Source: Pseudomonas beijingensis
GTDB lineage: Bacteria > Pseudomonadota > Gammaproteobacteria > Pseudomonadales > Pseudomonadaceae
DNA length: 64,000 nt
Direction: 5' to 3'
NCBI RefSeq assembly: GCF_030687295.1
Contig: NZ_CP117425.1
Location: forward strand, 1,864,001 to 1,928,000
Positions 29,507-51,266 of the stretch are shown here, piece by piece. The stretch's first letter is position 1. Every line of letters starts with the position of its first letter. A model generated the notes under the pieces. The model worked only from the letters and a program-made list of their open reading frames with translations, was not told the DNA's origin and searched no databases. The position numbers were made by a program, and so were the translations under genes.

Positions 29507-29619
29507 AAAGGCGGCGACCAATCAAAGGCAAGAAAGGGGGACGGGAAATTTGCTGGGTGATGTCCGCTGTGGGAGGGTCGAGCTCGCTGTCTTGCCCGCC
29601 GCCAAGAACCGCGAAAAAA

Positions 29620-29645
29620 AATCACCTGTCGAAGGACAGGTGATT
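29620..29645 (-). terminator. Terminator of the small coiled-coil membrane protein gene
   Basis: The perfect stem aatcacctgtc/gacaggtgatt has a 4-base loop, with an A run on the plus strand just before it (T run on the minus strand). It lies 29 bases after the stop of the minus-strand gene at 29,674. Confidence 0.75.
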
Positions 29646-29673
29646 TTCGTGGCTTCAGTAATCGCTAAGAAAA

Positions 29674-29979
29674 CTATAAGAAGGCTTTCATCGCCGCGAT
29701 CAAGATGCCGATCGTCACGGCGAGCATGGAAGCCATACGAATGGACAACTTGAGATCGGATTTAGCGATCTCTACAGTCAGCCGATGATTAGTATTAGCA
29801 ATCTCAGCGGTCGCCTTGCCGATTTCAGCAGTTAACCGCTGGTCAAGACTTGTGAGATCACTTTTCGTCGCGAGTAGTGTGAGCATGTCAGATTCCAATG
29901 CTTGGATAACAGCTTCGGCTTTGAGCTCAGGCACGTCGATTGCGCGCAGTGCCTGATACATCGCCAGTTCCATTTTCAT
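29674..29979 (-). CDS. Small coiled-coil protein with C-terminal membrane anchor (copy 1)
   Basis: The 101-residue protein has an N-terminal MYQALRAIDVPELKAEAVIQAL segment, a coiled-coil middle with repeats (LTSLDQRLTAEIGKATAEIA) and a C-terminal transmembrane helix (MASMLAVTIGILIAAMKAFL). This is the plan of DUF1640/CCDC90-like proteins found in mobile elements. A paralogue at 47,079-47,324 shares the N-terminal and anchor regions but has a shorter middle. An aggagg site precedes the ATG. The mRNA leader contains the structured attenuator-like element described below. It lies downstream of the MobH relaxase gene. Confidence 0.72.
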   Translation of the reverse strand: MKMELAMYQALRAIDVPELKAEAVIQALESDMLTLLATKSDLTSLDQRLTAEIGKATAEIANTNHRLTVEIAKSDLKLSIRMASMLAVTIGILIAAMKAFL

Positions 29980-30250
29980 TAAGGCCTCCTAAACCAAAAA
30001 AGGCCTTCCCCACGACAGGAAAGGCCCGTCGTGGGTGGGAAAGTCATGCTTCCATCGACATTCAAGTCGACTGTCCGCGCTGCCGGAAGCTATGCGGTCA
30101 TATGATGGATCCTGCGGAGAACCGCAGCGCCGTCTTGAAGATCCTGGCGGCTGGTGCTGAGCGAATCAGCGAGATGCATAGCAAAAATGCCCCTGGGGGG
30201 CGTTTGCTGTCAATCCGAAAAGCGGTTATCGAGTGTTTCCTAATGTTGTG
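29980..30250 (-). promoter_or_regulatory. Structured leader with competing hairpins (copy 1)
   Basis: The minus-strand leader between mobH and the small membrane protein gene can fold a terminator stem (ggcctttcc with ggggaaggcc, followed by six T) or an overlapping alternative stem (cccacgac with gtcgtggg). They share bases, so only one can form. Upstream, two more hairpins (ctgcgg/ccgcag and cgac/gtcg) are also present in the second copy at 47,325-47,575. One pair of the alternative stem is C-G here and A-T there. This looks like a transcription attenuator or riboregulator. Confidence 0.6.
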
Positions 30251-32055
30251 TGAGGCTTCTCACTGCCTGGCGTCACCAACTTCAGATTCGGGTTGTTGGG
30301 GGACGAATCGCTTATCAAGCCATAGTGCTTTTTCAAGAAATAGCCGTGCAAGAAACGTGTTCTGCGCGCGCCGCTGAGCTCACATGTCCAGATGCAGCGA
30401 CCGTTCGCTTGTATACGGTGCAGTTTCATTTTCCCAAAGCGCCTTTGAACCCATTCCCAGTCAGACTGGCCCTGTCTTTTCGAGATGCAGGCGAAATGGG
30501 GAAATGCTTTCGCGTAGCGTTGGAAGATTCCAGGAGTGACCAAGAAGAGTGTGTCTTCGACGGAGTGCACCAGCGCTTGATCGTCATTCATGATGATCTC
30601 CTGAGTGCGCACGCCTTTGATCAGCCACTCCATGAAGTGTTCGCCGCTTGGCTTCACATACTTGTCTGGTACGGACGGTTCTTCTGCTGAAGGTGCACAT
30701 TCGGTGATAGGTGCGGACTCGGAGTCTTCAGGCCACTTGGAAGGCTCGCCGAATCGATTCCTCAATGAGTCGAGAGAGTCGGGTGATACTGTATCTGGCA
30801 GTGATGGATCTGATTGTATGGTTATGGTCGCTGGCTTATTGGTCTCAGCTGCAGTGGTCGCCTGCGCGGGGGCATCGCTGGTAAACGTTGCCGCAGACGG
30901 GCCCTCAAGTAGATCAACTGTCACCTTGCCCGTGAAAGCAACTGGACGCGCTCTACCGTTCCAGATCAATGCCGGTAATAGTTTCAGGACAGTGAAGTTT
31001 TGCAACCAACCCCTCTCGCTCGTGACAGTCACTTTCCAGATGGCTTCCCCATCGGCCGTGGGCAGGGCAATACCGTACTCCAGCAGTACATCGAGTACAG
31101 CGATCTCTTGTTCTGGCACTCCATCAACACCCTGAGAGAGGAGGTGGTGATGAAGCTTGTCTGATACGTTTTTGCTGACCAGCCATAGAGCCTCTCGCGT
31201 GAGCCAGCCATCCGAGGCTTCGGGCTGGTTGAGCTTTAGCTCTGAGGCGAGTAGGTAGCGAAGGCTGTCGAGGAGTTTGTGTCGCAGTGCATGTTTTGCG
31301 ACAGACATCGCGTTAATTGGGCCACTTCCCATAGCTTTGGCTACGGAAGCTTGATCGGCTTGAGTAATGAGGGCGCCGAGTTCGCCAGTATGTTCGCTAT
31401 GGCCAGACCAGTGGAATATTAGAGAGGCCCACAGTTCAGGGAAGGCGGAAAGCCAGTCTAGGATTTCCCTGCTTAATAGCTGCTGGATCATCAGGCAGGA
31501 TGCGGCCCCGCGCAGTCGATGCTCGCGGTCTTTTCGGTATCGAAATCGGTAAGGTCGAGTCAGCGGTCCGTGCCATGGGTGCCAGGCGCAGCCATCCGAA
31601 TATTCAACCTGGACATCAATCGCAATCTTGCCAAGGTTTTCCCCCAGGCTGGCGTATGCCAGTGCGGCATTCCACGCTTCTGCTTGAGCTATCTGAACTT
31701 CTGGTTGCGCTCCTGAGGGCAGTAAGCGTGATGGGCGCATTTTGAGAGCGTACGTAATTACTTCCAGGCCATGGTCCAGCATCCCACCGGAATATGTATG
31801 GTGCTGGCTTTCGGAGGCCGGCAGAAATTGGACCAGTTCGGCGTATCGTCTAATTGGGTCGAGATAAAGTTTATCGAATTGAGGGCGGGATACGGCGGTG
31901 CACTGCCAGATCTGCTCCAGCAATTTTTGTTTGTGGGGAGTGGCCAAGAGTGATTTTGCAGATTGGGGTGTGGTCAGACCGGCGGGTGATGTTGGGCTGG
32001 CTGCAGCGGTAGGGCCGAGTGCACGCCGAAGCTTGCGATGGAACAGCGAGAACAT
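30226..32055 (-). CDS. mobH: MobH-family relaxase (TraI_2 domain)
   Basis: The 609-residue protein begins MFSLFHRKLRRALGP at 32055, preceded by aggag. The N-terminal half is the MobH relaxase domain: RYAELVQFLPASESQHHTYSG, then GMLDHGLEVITYAL with the HD-type metal ligands, HPWHGPL, and RFRYRKDREHRLRGAASCL. The C-terminal third (EHFMEWLIKGVRTQEIIMND, then WVQRRFGKMKLH) is the conserved domain of TraI proteins of SXT- and PFGI-type integrative conjugative elements. MobH nicks the element's origin of transfer. No type IV secretion genes accompany it, so the element would need help to transfer. Confidence 0.88.
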   Translation of the reverse strand: MFSLFHRKLRRALGPTAAASPTSPAGLTTPQSAKSLLATPHKQKLLEQIWQCTAVSRPQFDKLYLDPIRRYAELVQFLPASESQHHTYSGGMLDHGLEVITYALKMRPSRLLPSGAQPEVQIAQAEAWNAALAYASLGENLGKIAIDVQVEYSDGCAWHPWHGPLTRPYRFRYRKDREHRLRGAASCLMIQQLLSREILDWLSAFPELWASLIFHWSGHSEHTGELGALITQADQASVAKAMGSGPINAMSVAKHALRHKLLDSLRYLLASELKLNQPEASDGWLTREALWLVSKNVSDKLHHHLLSQGVDGVPEQEIAVLDVLLEYGIALPTADGEAIWKVTVTSERGWLQNFTVLKLLPALIWNGRARPVAFTGKVTVDLLEGPSAATFTSDAPAQATTAAETNKPATITIQSDPSLPDTVSPDSLDSLRNRFGEPSKWPEDSESAPITECAPSAEEPSVPDKYVKPSGEHFMEWLIKGVRTQEIIMNDDQALVHSVEDTLFLVTPGIFQRYAKAFPHFACISKRQGQSDWEWVQRRFGKMKLHRIQANGRCIWTCELSGARRTRFLHGYFLKKHYGLISDSSPNNPNLKLVTPGSEKPHTTLGNTR

Positions 32056-32599
32056 AATTGCTCCTGTCGAGAAGAAGAGGAGGTATTCGCTTGGTAACGA
32101 TATGGGCAGCACTCATGAGTGATGGAGGAGTGCTTAGCTTCGAAGCGCCGATATAGACTTGTCAGCGGGCAAAGCGCGGAGCGAGCGAGCCGGATTGGTC
32201 CCTAGAGACAGCGAGCGGCTTCTTGCTACGTCAGAGGAGTCCCTCAGTCATCCACGTTTGCATGGTTGATCAGATGACCGAAGCCGGGAATGCTCGCCGA
32301 GCAGGCATTCCATGTCTCGTGCCTATAGGACACGCATCCGGCCAGTGCAGAAAGATTAAATGCGTCACTACGCATCTCCGTATTAGCTGGAAATACGCTT
32401 GGTTAGGTCGAGGCGCTAACGAGGTGCGGAGCAAGACCGCAGAGTCCAGCTCTGAGAATGGCGACTGTCATGGAAATGGCCGCTCGATCGTTCGGGGCGA
32501 CATTCGTTGAAGCCTAGGGCATCACGAGTACCTGGAGCTTTAGCCCCCGAATGTATGGAGAAGCAGACTTTCACGACTCATTGAGTTCGAGCACCCTGA
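32056..32599. other. Intergenic, no gene seen
   Basis: These 540 bases lie between the relaxase start and the integrase stop. I see no supported ORF and no strong hairpin. An origin of transfer would be plausible next to the relaxase, but I cannot identify one from sequence. Confidence 0.4.
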
Positions 32600-46092: not shown

Positions 46093-46688
46093 ACATACTC
46101 CTTAGCGGAACCGGCCAACGCCGACCGCATCCACTCGGGCATCTTACAGGCCATGAGCTTGTTGAATTCCTCAGCGCTGAGCGAGCTGGCTACCTTACTT
46201 ACGGCCTGCTCAGTCAGTCCTTCTTTCCCAAGATACAACAACGCAGTCAGTGCCACCCCTACCTGGGTGCCAGCTTGCTGGAGTCGTTGCCGAGACGCAT
46301 GACGCAACCGAACTACCGCATTACCGATCTTGATTTCACGCGTCGATCCACTGGTGTAGTAAGTCGGCAGAACCTGCATCTGAGTGCTTAGTCCCAGTCG
46401 ACGAACAGCTTCTACGCCATGGACCTGGATAGTCTCGCCTCTTGCCCGGGCGACCGCTTCCATGACTGCAATCGGGTTAGCTCGAACCTTCTTACCCGTG
46501 TACTCGCTCTGTTTAGGGCGCATGTAGACGCCGCGAGCAACGCGCTCTAGGGAGCCATTGAGCACCATCCGAGACAGCGCTTTGTCTACCGAGGCGCGCG
46601 AGCCCGCCTGCGCGAAAACTGCGCCAGCAAAGGGCTTACCCTTAGGCATGTGCTTAATTCGGTTCGAGATAGACTCTGCGACAGACAT
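46041..46688 (-). CDS. abiEi: AbiEi-type antitoxin/transcriptional regulator (DUF6088)
   Basis: The 215-residue protein has an N-terminal winged-helix segment (VFAQAGSRASVDKALSRMVL, then NGSLERVARGVYMRP) and a helical C-terminal domain. This is the layout of AbiEi antitoxins, which repress their own promoter and neutralise AbiEii without direct stable contact. The ATG at 46688 follows aggag. The perfect inverted repeat at 46,704-46,733 just upstream is its probable operator. A DUF6088 annotation would fit. Confidence 0.83.
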   Translation of the reverse strand: MSVAESISNRIKHMPKGKPFAGAVFAQAGSRASVDKALSRMVLNGSLERVARGVYMRPKQSEYTGKKVRANPIAVMEAVARARGETIQVHGVEAVRRLGLSTQMQVLPTYYTSGSTREIKIGNAVVRLRHASRQRLQQAGTQVGVALTALLYLGKEGLTEQAVSKVASSLSAEEFNKLMACKMPEWMRSALAGSAKEYVCQDRTLNYPKLVNAKS

Positions 46689-47078: not shown

Positions 47079-47324
47079 TTAGTGGATAAACGCAATCCCA
47101 GCGAAGAGAATCGCCACCACGAGGGAGAGCATCACGCCAATATCCATAATGAGACCCGCCCGAAACCGGGATAGCTCTGCGCGAAATCGTGCGAAGTCGG
47201 GATCGGTTGTACCTGCAAAAGATAAATGCATATCAGAATCCATGGCTTGGATAACTGTTTCGATTTTCTGCTCAGGCACGTTGATCGCCTTCAGGGCTTT
47301 ATACATTGCCAGTCGATTTTTCAT
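47079..47324 (-). CDS. Small membrane-anchored protein (copy 2, shorter)
   Basis: The 81-residue paralogue of the gene at 29,674 starts MKNRLAMYKALKAINVPEQK and ends with an anchor helix (GVMLSLVVAILFAGIAFIH). The coiled-coil middle of copy 1 is mostly absent. The ATG at 47324 follows ggagg. It has the same kind of terminator and the same structured leader as copy 1. The function is unknown; such genes recur in mobile elements of Pseudomonas. Confidence 0.65.
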   Translation of the reverse strand: MKNRLAMYKALKAINVPEQKIETVIQAMDSDMHLSFAGTTDPDFARFRAELSRFRAGLIMDIGVMLSLVVAILFAGIAFIH

Positions 47325-47575
47325 TAAGACCTCCAAAATAATAAAGGCCTGCCCCAAGACGGGGAGGCCCGTCTTGGGTGGGGGAATATCATGCTTCCGT
47401 CGACATTCAAGTCGACTGTTCGCGCTTCCGGAAGCGATGCGACATTGGAAGGATCCTGCGGGAAACCGCAGTGCCGTCTCGAAGATCCTGGCGGCTAGTG
47501 TGAGCTTGTAGATTGCATTCACTGGTATTTGTCGTCAATCCGAAAACCGACTATCGAGTGTTCCCGAATGTTGGG
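47325..47575 (-). promoter_or_regulatory. Structured leader with competing hairpins (copy 2) and mobH fossil
   Basis: Second copy of the leader RNA: terminator stem ggcctcccc with ggggcaggcc followed by a T-rich tract, versus the alternative stem cccaagac/gtcttggg. It also keeps the ctgcgg/ccgcag and cgac/gtcg hairpins. Just upstream, acattcgggaacactcgatag encodes TFGNTR and a stop, equal to the end of the relaxase at 30,226, so a lost mobH gene once preceded it. Confidence 0.6.
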
Positions 47576-49980: not shown

Positions 49981-51266
49981 TTAACGAATCGAGACGACTT
50001 TCCGGCTTCTGTTTTCATGGATTGCTGCTATTGAAAAGTCACCCGTGGCCGCCTTTTGAATGTGCTCGCTCCACCAGGCCATCATTGGGCGTCGACGCTC
50101 AATGTAGTCCGCGCGGTTGTAAGCGCTTCTAACCTCATCTTTGTCGACATGAGCCAAGGCAACCTCAATCAGTTCGGCATCCCAGGCATGCTCGTTCAGG
50201 ATGGTGCTCGCCATGGAGCGCATTCCGTGGCTTACGAGTCGCCCTTCAAACCCCATCCGTTTCAGCGCCATGTTGGCGGTCTGGCTGTTGCAATGGGTGC
50301 GCGGATTGCGGTCGGCGGGAAACACGTACTCCCTGTGTCCGCTGTAGGGCTTGATGGCCTCCAGGAGCGCCAAGGCCTGCTCCGTGAGCGGAATGATGTG
50401 TGTGCGGCGTTTCTTCATTCTCCGGTGGAATCGTCCAGATCTTCTTCTTGAAGTCGATGTCAGCCCATCGGGTGGTCGCAGCTTCGGATGGCCGAGTCAT
50501 CGTGTGCAGCTGCCACTCGATGAGGCACCGGGTGGTTCTTTTGATGCTGGCGTTGGCAATCGCCACCATGAGTTCATTGAGCTCATCGGGGGGGCAATGC
50601 CGCCATGTTTTTCTTCTTGGGCTTTTTGAAGACCGATCGAATTCCGCTCAGGGGGTTGGCATGAATGAGTCCGTAGTTCACCCCGTAAGTCATGATTTCG
50701 TTGAGACGTTGGGTCAGGCGCTTGACCGTTTCCAAGCTGCCTTTGGTCTCAAGTGGCTTAAGCAATTTGATGACCTGAGGAGCGCTGATTTCAGAAATCG
50801 GGGTCGCGTGTAGATCCGGGAAGACGTGAAGCGTGAGTGATCGCCAAATATCTTCAGCGTAGGCGGTTGTCACTGAATCTTTCTTCAGTTCAAACCATGC
50901 CGTCGCCACGTTTTGAAAGGTGTGCTCTGTCGCAGCTTTTTTCGCTTGGCGATCTGCATCGCGTTGCTCTTTCGGGTCCAGTCCTTGGGCAACCAGCTCC
51001 CTGGCCTCAACCGTGCGTTTTCGCGCATGAGCCAGGCTGAGTTCCGGGAACGTCCCCAGTCCCATGTTGATCCGTTTCTTGGTCACGGGATGGATGTAGT
51101 TGAAATTCCAAAGCCTCGAACCGTTGGTTCGGACTCGTAACTGAAGGCCGTCGCCGTCGGTCAATGTGTAGTCCTTGTTCTTGGGCTTGGCGGCTTTGAT
51201 TTTCAGGTCTGAAAGGCGTGTGGCTCGGGCTCCCATGGGTACTCCAACGCTGTTTGTGTATTCCAA
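49981..51266 (-). pseudogene. P4-type tyrosine integrase with two frameshifts
   Basis: Three overlapping frames make one P4/CP4-57-like integrase of about 425 residues: the N-terminal part (MGARATRLSDLKIKAAKPKN, DGLQLRVRTNGSRLWNFNYI), the middle (MVAIANASIKRTTRCLIEWQ) and the C-terminal catalytic part (HGMRSMASTILNEHAWDAEL, HVDKDEVRSAYNRADY). The first break is in a run of seven C (minus strand, near 50,590); six would restore the frame. The second lies near 50,420 (ccggagaatgaag), where two bases seem lost. The gene sits 150 bases from the ssrA 3' end and would have catalysed the island's insertion. Real inactivation or sequence error are both possible. Confidence 0.88.

Follow-up and report, generated by a model that had tools for sequence, protein, structure and literature searches.

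The window analysed here, a stretch of 64,000 nucleotides from Pseudomonas beijingensis (contig NZ_CP117425.1), contains two copies of a structured leader, both on the minus strand and each followed by a gene for a small protein (Table 1). Inspection of the sequence confirmed the positions that an earlier note on this DNA had given for the copies, along with the paralogous small-protein genes after each; the 101- and 81-residue products share 38% identity. Scanning against Rfam identified both copies, which the earlier note had not recognised, as members of RF01754 (radC RNA), with scores above the curated gathering cut-off of 40 bits that is the threshold for membership. The start codon lies 68 nt past the match, on the same strand, in both copies. 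After each match comes a second fold, predicted to hide the site at which ribosomes would bind to start the next gene, and this fold would likely act as a switch. Genome-wide, one further match to RF01754 falls below the cut-off (third radC RNA in Table 1). A match to the Xanthomonas sRNA asX2 at 29543–29645 was rejected (24.2 bits against a cut-off of 70).

The island that carries the two leaders is probably an integrative conjugative element, as judged from the TraI_2 gene upstream of copy 1, pieces of an integrase by the tmRNA gene and the wider context. The integrase, of the tyrosine type, is split in two frames on the minus strand, with the arm and middle domains at 51266–50583 and the catalytic domain at 50418–49981. 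Between the two leaders, at 46688–45067 on the minus strand, DUF6088/AbiEi-like and AbiEii genes form a candidate type IV toxin-antitoxin pair. A CACCTGT...ACAGGTG hairpin with a T-run can be read after both small-protein genes (29645–29620 and 47050–47029, minus strand) and is listed by a pattern scan just for the second, so that a terminator after the small-protein gene appears to be part of what was duplicated.

Table 1. Features of the two radC leaders and their surroundings, in window coordinates except for the third radC RNA of the genome (contig C1).
Feature	Position	Strand	Description
TraI_2 / TraI_2_C gene, upstream of copy 1	30226–32112	-	Pfam: putative helicase; conjugal transfer nickase/helicase C-terminal domain
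-35-like box TTGACA, copy 1	30208–30213	-	Read in the sequence; 12 nt past the TraI_2 stop codon
Candidate -10 box CATTTT, copy 1	30184–30189	-	Predicted; 18 nt after the -35 box; one-base overlap with the 5' end of the Rfam model
radC RNA aptamer domain, copy 1	30048–30184	-	RF01754, 66.9 bits
Pseudoknot PK1, copy 1	30108–30143	-	GATC 30143–30140 with GATC 30111–30108
Pseudoknot PK2, copy 1	30048–30090	-	GCTTCC 30090–30085 with GGAAGC 30053–30048
Stem A, copy 1	30009–30035	-	30035–30025 with 30019–30009; predicted minimum-energy fold, swap test
Stem B, copy 1	30001–30027	-	30027–30017 with 30011–30001, then T5; terminator-like; swap test
Stem C, copy 1	29981–30007	-	30007–29998 with 29990–29981; covers AGGAGG 29990–29985; predicted minimum-energy fold, swap test
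Small-protein gene, copy 1	29674–29979	-	101 aa, C-terminal hydrophobic stretch; some relatives named DUF1640
Doubtful candidate promoter, copy 2	47510–47538	-	TTGACG 47538–47533, 17 nt, CAATCT 47515–47510; inferred
radC RNA, copy 2	47393–47533	-	RF01754, 62.8 bits; P1 doubtful
Stem A, copy 2	47353–47378	-	47378–47368 with 47363–47353; predicted fold
Stem C, copy 2	47327–47350	-	47350–47342 with 47335–47327; covers GGAGG 47334–47330; predicted fold
Paralogous small-protein gene, copy 2	47079–47324	-	81 aa from ATG 47324
Third radC RNA of the genome (L003)	C1:1345873–1346007	-	36.7 bits; shorter type

Searches for further radC RNAs listed at least 163 places, 16 of them without a fetched sequence. 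The 147 with sequence were reduced to 74 non-redundant members at less than 90% identity, which were freshly aligned for the aptamer counts. A scan of column pairs suggests helices beyond the nested Rfam consensus line, and the resulting aptamer structure comprises 41 pairs in seven helices, two of which (PK1 and PK2) cross others. Overall 93.8% of cells are paired versus 76.8% in shuffles, a figure to be read with the choice of structure in mind, as it was picked after viewing an alignment of these sequences; controls with slid strands do not exceed 46.9%. Changes on both sides are seen in 39 of the 41 pairs. The domain thus has the conserved, covarying aptamer expected of a translational riboswitch, and the strong covariation among homologues, which the earlier note had named as a check, came out in its favour. 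Plus-strand open reading frames overlap both window copies, and a coding explanation was set aside, as the aptamer covariation would argue for an RNA.

PK1 joins the loop of P2 to the strand after P3, and PK2 joins the loop of P4 to the 3' end. Among the 74 aptamers, 93.2% of PK1 cells are paired with both-sided change in 4/4 pairs, and the corresponding values for PK2 are 95.9% and 4/6. The pseudoknots are intact in both window copies (4/4 pairs for PK1 and 6/6 for PK2), each of which also retains 5/6 pairs of P2, 5/6 of P3 and 6/7 of P5; P4 has 5/6 pairs in copy 1 and 4/6 in copy 2. P1 holds 5/6 pairs in each copy, and in copy 2 its sequence is unlike that of the family and overlaps the candidate promoter. 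The Rfam consensus line is nested only and lacks P4, PK1 and PK2. A published list of families whose database structure misses covarying pairs already includes radC/RF01754 (PMC7657543), so that on the strength of that list the helices beyond the Rfam line are not new as such.

The position of the promoter was examined in the 73 non-redundant members with enough upstream sequence. In 44 of these, copy 1 included, TTGAC begins 32–20 nt upstream of the Rfam model, whereas the 27 control windows average 0.59 occurrences and never exceed 3. In these 44 members the -35-like box lies upstream of the structure, in agreement with the earlier proposal of a transcribed leader, and the transcript would begin close to the first hairpin of the aptamer. 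The -10 signal is weak, with yAnnnT 16–19 nt downstream in just 14 of the 44 TTGAC-bearing members. The sole such box of copy 2 is found 5 nt ahead of the match, and the -10 candidate falls inside the aligned P1 strands, so either the promoter of this copy or its P1 is doubtful.

The Rfam model stops before the region in which the start codon is reached, and it is here that a four-segment platform was found. A screen for start codons with a Shine-Dalgarno-like motif and an open reading frame of at least 55 aa, 20–230 nt downstream of the RNA, retained 92 of the 147 sequences. Eight with doubtful starts were set aside, removal of near-duplicates left 51, and four more were left out (three leaders of a 262–270-aa family with no Pfam hit and almost no spacer, and one spurious open reading frame) to give 47. 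Placed side by side, the leaders show one layout: segments 1, 2, 3 and 4, the last with the Shine-Dalgarno sequence, and then the start codon. In leader L046, for example, the segments read CGACGGGACT, ACCCGTCAGGG, GGTCTCCGTC and GGAGACC. Stem A pairs segments 1 and 2, stem B pairs 1 and 3, and stem C pairs 3 and 4; stem B overlaps both A and C and so excludes both. Stem B is the hairpin that had been described as a terminator, and the compensatory change from C30013/G30031 in copy 1 to A47357/T47374 in copy 2 was correctly reported, both pairs lying within stem A. The earlier note was right to propose a structured leader whose hairpins exclude each other, attenuator- or riboswitch-like in kind; the strand, the RF01754 membership and stem C over the Shine-Dalgarno sequence are additions to it. 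Computation thus predicts the exclusive stems, one of them masking the Shine-Dalgarno sequence, that are expected of a translational riboswitch.

The shorter radC RNAs (15 of the 74 non-redundant members, the third genomic copy included) have no nearby start codon and no visible platform, and the switch may accordingly not belong to all radC RNAs. In the third genomic copy a strong hairpin, GCCCGTCTCTTT...AAAGAGACGGGC, lies about 100 nt downstream; it is present in most of the 15 shorter-type members.

Comparison of the Shine-Dalgarno duplex energy of each leader with shuffled upstream sequence was uninformative (8/51 at p < 0.05, median p 0.23), which may reflect the richness of the leaders in G and C, and was replaced by a swap test. 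In this test the segments are cut by alignment position and the duplex energy of each segment with its own partner is compared with that for permuted partners, the real sequences being kept. In the 47 leaders the segments match their own partners in all three stems, with z-scores of -9.9 (A), -8.6 (B) and -9.7 (C) and 0/20,000 permutations as good for each. The duplex energies for own and permuted partners are -16.6 and -12.9 kcal/mol for A, -12.0 and -9.2 for B, and -12.5 and -8.8 for C, and eight control pairings give z-scores of -1.6 to +2.2. With one leader drawn per label group the median p is 0/500 for each of A, B and C; the 20 groups represent fewer independent gene families, as several of the 'other' groups look related, and the labels were set by short motifs or first residues, so that two non-RadC leaders sit in the RadC group. 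Against this, a control pairing of an aptamer stretch with segment 4 gives a median p of 0.016 in the same grouped sampling. Column counts are less uniform. In a plain MAFFT alignment of the 47 leaders, in which the gene families seem to be shifted against one another by a few columns, the signal is strong for C (0/500 shuffles as good) and modest for B (9/500), but weak for A (50/500).

The family of the window genes was examined separately. A protein-alignment search found 39 loci in 84,980 species genomes and one in viral contigs, and in 37 of these 40 loci an RF01754 match above the cut-off ends 61–77 nt before the gene; this proportion should be read knowing that 6 of the 27 protein rows in the search alignment (A3) were picked since a radC RNA precedes their gene, and that the RNA search had earlier matched some of the genomes in which the loci lie. 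Pseudomonas mediterranea has both paralogues approximately 18 kb apart (L131 and L166), compared with 17 kb in the window. For a leader alignment of the gene family (A4), 36 of the 40 loci were taken, L145, L156, L167 and L169 being left out, and some four rows are off register in segment 1. Stem C is paired in 86.2% of cells versus 82.4% in shuffles and stem A in 85.1% versus 82.6% (0/500 as high for each), whereas the excess for stem B in this alignment is not significant (87.5% versus 86.3%; 46/500). The swap test within the family gives z-scores of -3.8 (A), -6.5 (B) and -7.5 (C), with controls at -3.2 (1:4), -0.6 and 0.1; the value for 1:4 counts against the result, and GGCC is self-complementary there. 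At column 64, in segment 4, 10 of the 38 rows carry A and not G, and the partner in segment 3 is T and not C in all 10, while in segment 1 the opposing base is A in four of these rows and G, allowing a G-T pair, in six.

Folded alone, the platform is predicted to adopt A and C together in both copies, at -34.5 kcal/mol in copy 1 and -32.2 kcal/mol in copy 2, and each platform folds better than all 200 of its dinucleotide shuffles (z -4.29 and -4.46, respectively). When B is forced the energies are -23.3 and -22.2 kcal/mol, 10–11 kcal/mol less stable than A+C. Counting a stem as present at four or more pairs, the minimum-energy fold contains A and C together in 41/47 leaders and 38/38 rows of alignment A4; against an exchange between the two states, B appears in just 3/47 leaders and 0/38 rows. 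With A+C as the predicted ground state, the leader would be off unless A or C were opened, and given the cost and rarity of B, something must pay for its formation.

The earlier note had proposed an attenuator or riboswitch-like element with a terminator stem. In a transcription attenuator of this kind B would be an intrinsic terminator, A would be the antiterminator and read-through into the gene would be controlled. Copy 1 does resemble such a device, since its stem B of 11–12 pairs is followed by T5 and listed by the pattern scan, and both strands of 29600–30500 together contain four terminator-like sites versus 0.9 in shuffles. In copy 1 this terminator-like stem shares bases with stem A, in agreement with the earlier note. 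In copy 2, however, the tail reads TTTATTATTTT, stem B is missing from the scan output, and the T-run is replaced in most relatives. An uninterrupted T-run after stem B is found in 6 of 38 gene-family leaders, namely copy 1 and five others, mostly those nearest to it, and four T in a row within 12 nt in just 10 of the 47 leaders before several kinds of genes. Moreover, the T stretch of copy 1 belongs to the strand that pairs with AGGAGG in the predicted fold, and leaders that lack the T-run retain this pairing. Even when A forms, C could still close the Shine-Dalgarno sequence, which would leave an attenuator with no plain ON state. Control by termination is on these grounds rather unlikely, and translation would be the step at which the leader acts.

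The stability of A+C relative to B also fits a simpler arrangement, in which the two hairpins would simply lower translation until the ribosome, a trans-acting RNA or temperature opens them, the radC domain being no sensor. This would agree with the column counts for B, which are modest in the 47 leaders and not significant in the gene family, and with the outcome of 170 tests for pairing between aptamer and platform in 46 leaders; these found none (lowest z -2.7, two tests giving meaningless positive energies), a result that counts against a switch, and the action of the aptamer on the switch is thus not seen. B nevertheless coevolves nearly as strongly as A and C, in the 47 leaders as in the gene family, which a static pair of hairpins would not need, and the aptamer adjoins the platform in nearly all of the protein-found loci (37/40). 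A static repressor therefore appears quite unlikely. A translational switch, off by default and turned on when B replaces A+C, is the reading that we favour, with a probability of roughly 0.6.

The radC RNA is present in 67 of 194 genomes in the search of relatives, in 2 of 369 genomes drawn from the class and in 6 of 398 drawn from the phylum, the genome of the window being counted in each. In 31 of the 32 clusters with at least two copies, all copies lie on one strand. The proteins encoded downstream include RadC, DUF3577 (in NCBIfam the STY4534 family ICE replication protein), DUF3085 and DUF3275, and some of the small proteins have sub-threshold CCDC90-like matches; a Pfam scan of 20 downstream representatives gave a match above cut-off for five. 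The 'ICE replication protein' name, together with one plasmid neighbourhood of the RNA that holds type IVB pilus genes, points to integrative conjugative elements. Because the copies recur on one strand of apparent conjugative elements and precede genes for replication and DNA processing, the leaders could constitute a regulon of such an element.

The shared orientation ahead of mobile-element genes could also be explained if, once conjugation has delivered it to the recipient cell, the element acted as a folded DNA single strand, much as do the single-strand promoters in the leading regions of plasmids. Such promoters (Frpo) are present on the F plasmid. The term single-strand promoter is used in PMC9849209 and PMC11541004. 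A TTGAC box of the ordinary double-strand kind precedes the aptamer, however, and segment 4, which is conserved, is the very site at which ribosomes bind, as is sensible for an RNA, and we regard action as single-stranded DNA as very improbable.

Some resistance plasmids carry a 319-bp piece of the family DNA (L128, 5001–5320). The query matched 131 records, 129 of them at 95–99% identity and 128 typed as conjugative, and among the matches listed all 19 below the first show the 319-bp piece. On an IncC plasmid the piece sits in an unannotated stretch flanked by integron genes and nth/rmtC, and contains a radC RNA of 67.1 bits. A phage origin was rejected, as 50,697 phage records gave one match, an unverified faecal scaffold. 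The unverified faecal 'Bacteriophage sp.' scaffold MT835540.1 (L130), which may be a fragment of a mobile element, and a plasmid of Pseudomonas veronii (L129) each carry two radC RNAs approximately 0.6 kb apart, the second of which precedes a relative of the window gene.

Translational riboswitches generally combine a structured 5' domain with mutually exclusive stems, in one of which the ribosome-binding site is paired. The radC leaders share the conserved structured 5' domain and the downstream exclusive stems, one of which is predicted to mask the ribosome-binding site, but differ in that no base-paired link between aptamer and switch was found and in the form of the competition, in which 1:3 opposes two coexisting hairpins, 1:2 and 3:4. 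In the translational attenuation of ermC, 1:2 and 3:4 stand against 2:3. The radC leaders have the same two predicted hairpins, of which the second would mask the ribosome-binding site and be opened by alternative pairing, but the alternative is 1:3 rather than 2:3. In public summaries radC RNA is linked to genes for integrases, methyltransferases and antirestriction. The RNA has been on record as a likely cis-regulatory element since 2010 (Weinberg et al. 2010, PMC2864571), and the table in that report rates the motif as 'Y' for RNA, 'y' for cis-regulatory and '?' for riboswitch, and assigns it to Proteobacteria; these table ratings agree with a leader of undefined signal. The STAXI motif, as described in a part of the same report, is likewise a pseudoknotted element near genes for DNA-handling proteins, but consists of a pseudoknot repeated two or three times, whereas the radC domain is a single seven-helix fold (PMC2864571). 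Full-text literature searches, which mostly covered material outside subscription journals and supplements, returned no paper recognisable as assigning a function to radC RNA or RF01754.

In the translational switch that we propose, stems A and C would form by default, and stem C would hide the Shine-Dalgarno sequence and keep the gene off. Formation of stem B from segments 1 and 3 instead would free the Shine-Dalgarno sequence and turn the gene on. The aptamer would sense a small molecule, a protein or an RNA and bias the choice between A+C and B, with translation rather than termination as the outcome. It is conceivable, at somewhat less than even odds, that radC RNA is a riboswitch-like sensor on conjugative elements in which every copy supplies a promoter, an aptamer with two pseudoknots and a three-way switch over the Shine-Dalgarno sequence, so that through copies distributed along one element a single signal turns on translation of replication, DNA-processing and small membrane-protein genes together.

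A defined expression platform makes radC RNA testable, as it provides bases to mutate, an off state and genes expected to respond together, and a search for a signal, if the aptamer senses one, could start from the whole leader instead of the bare motif. Such a signal would govern the replication and maintenance genes of a kind of conjugative element often met in Pseudomonas.
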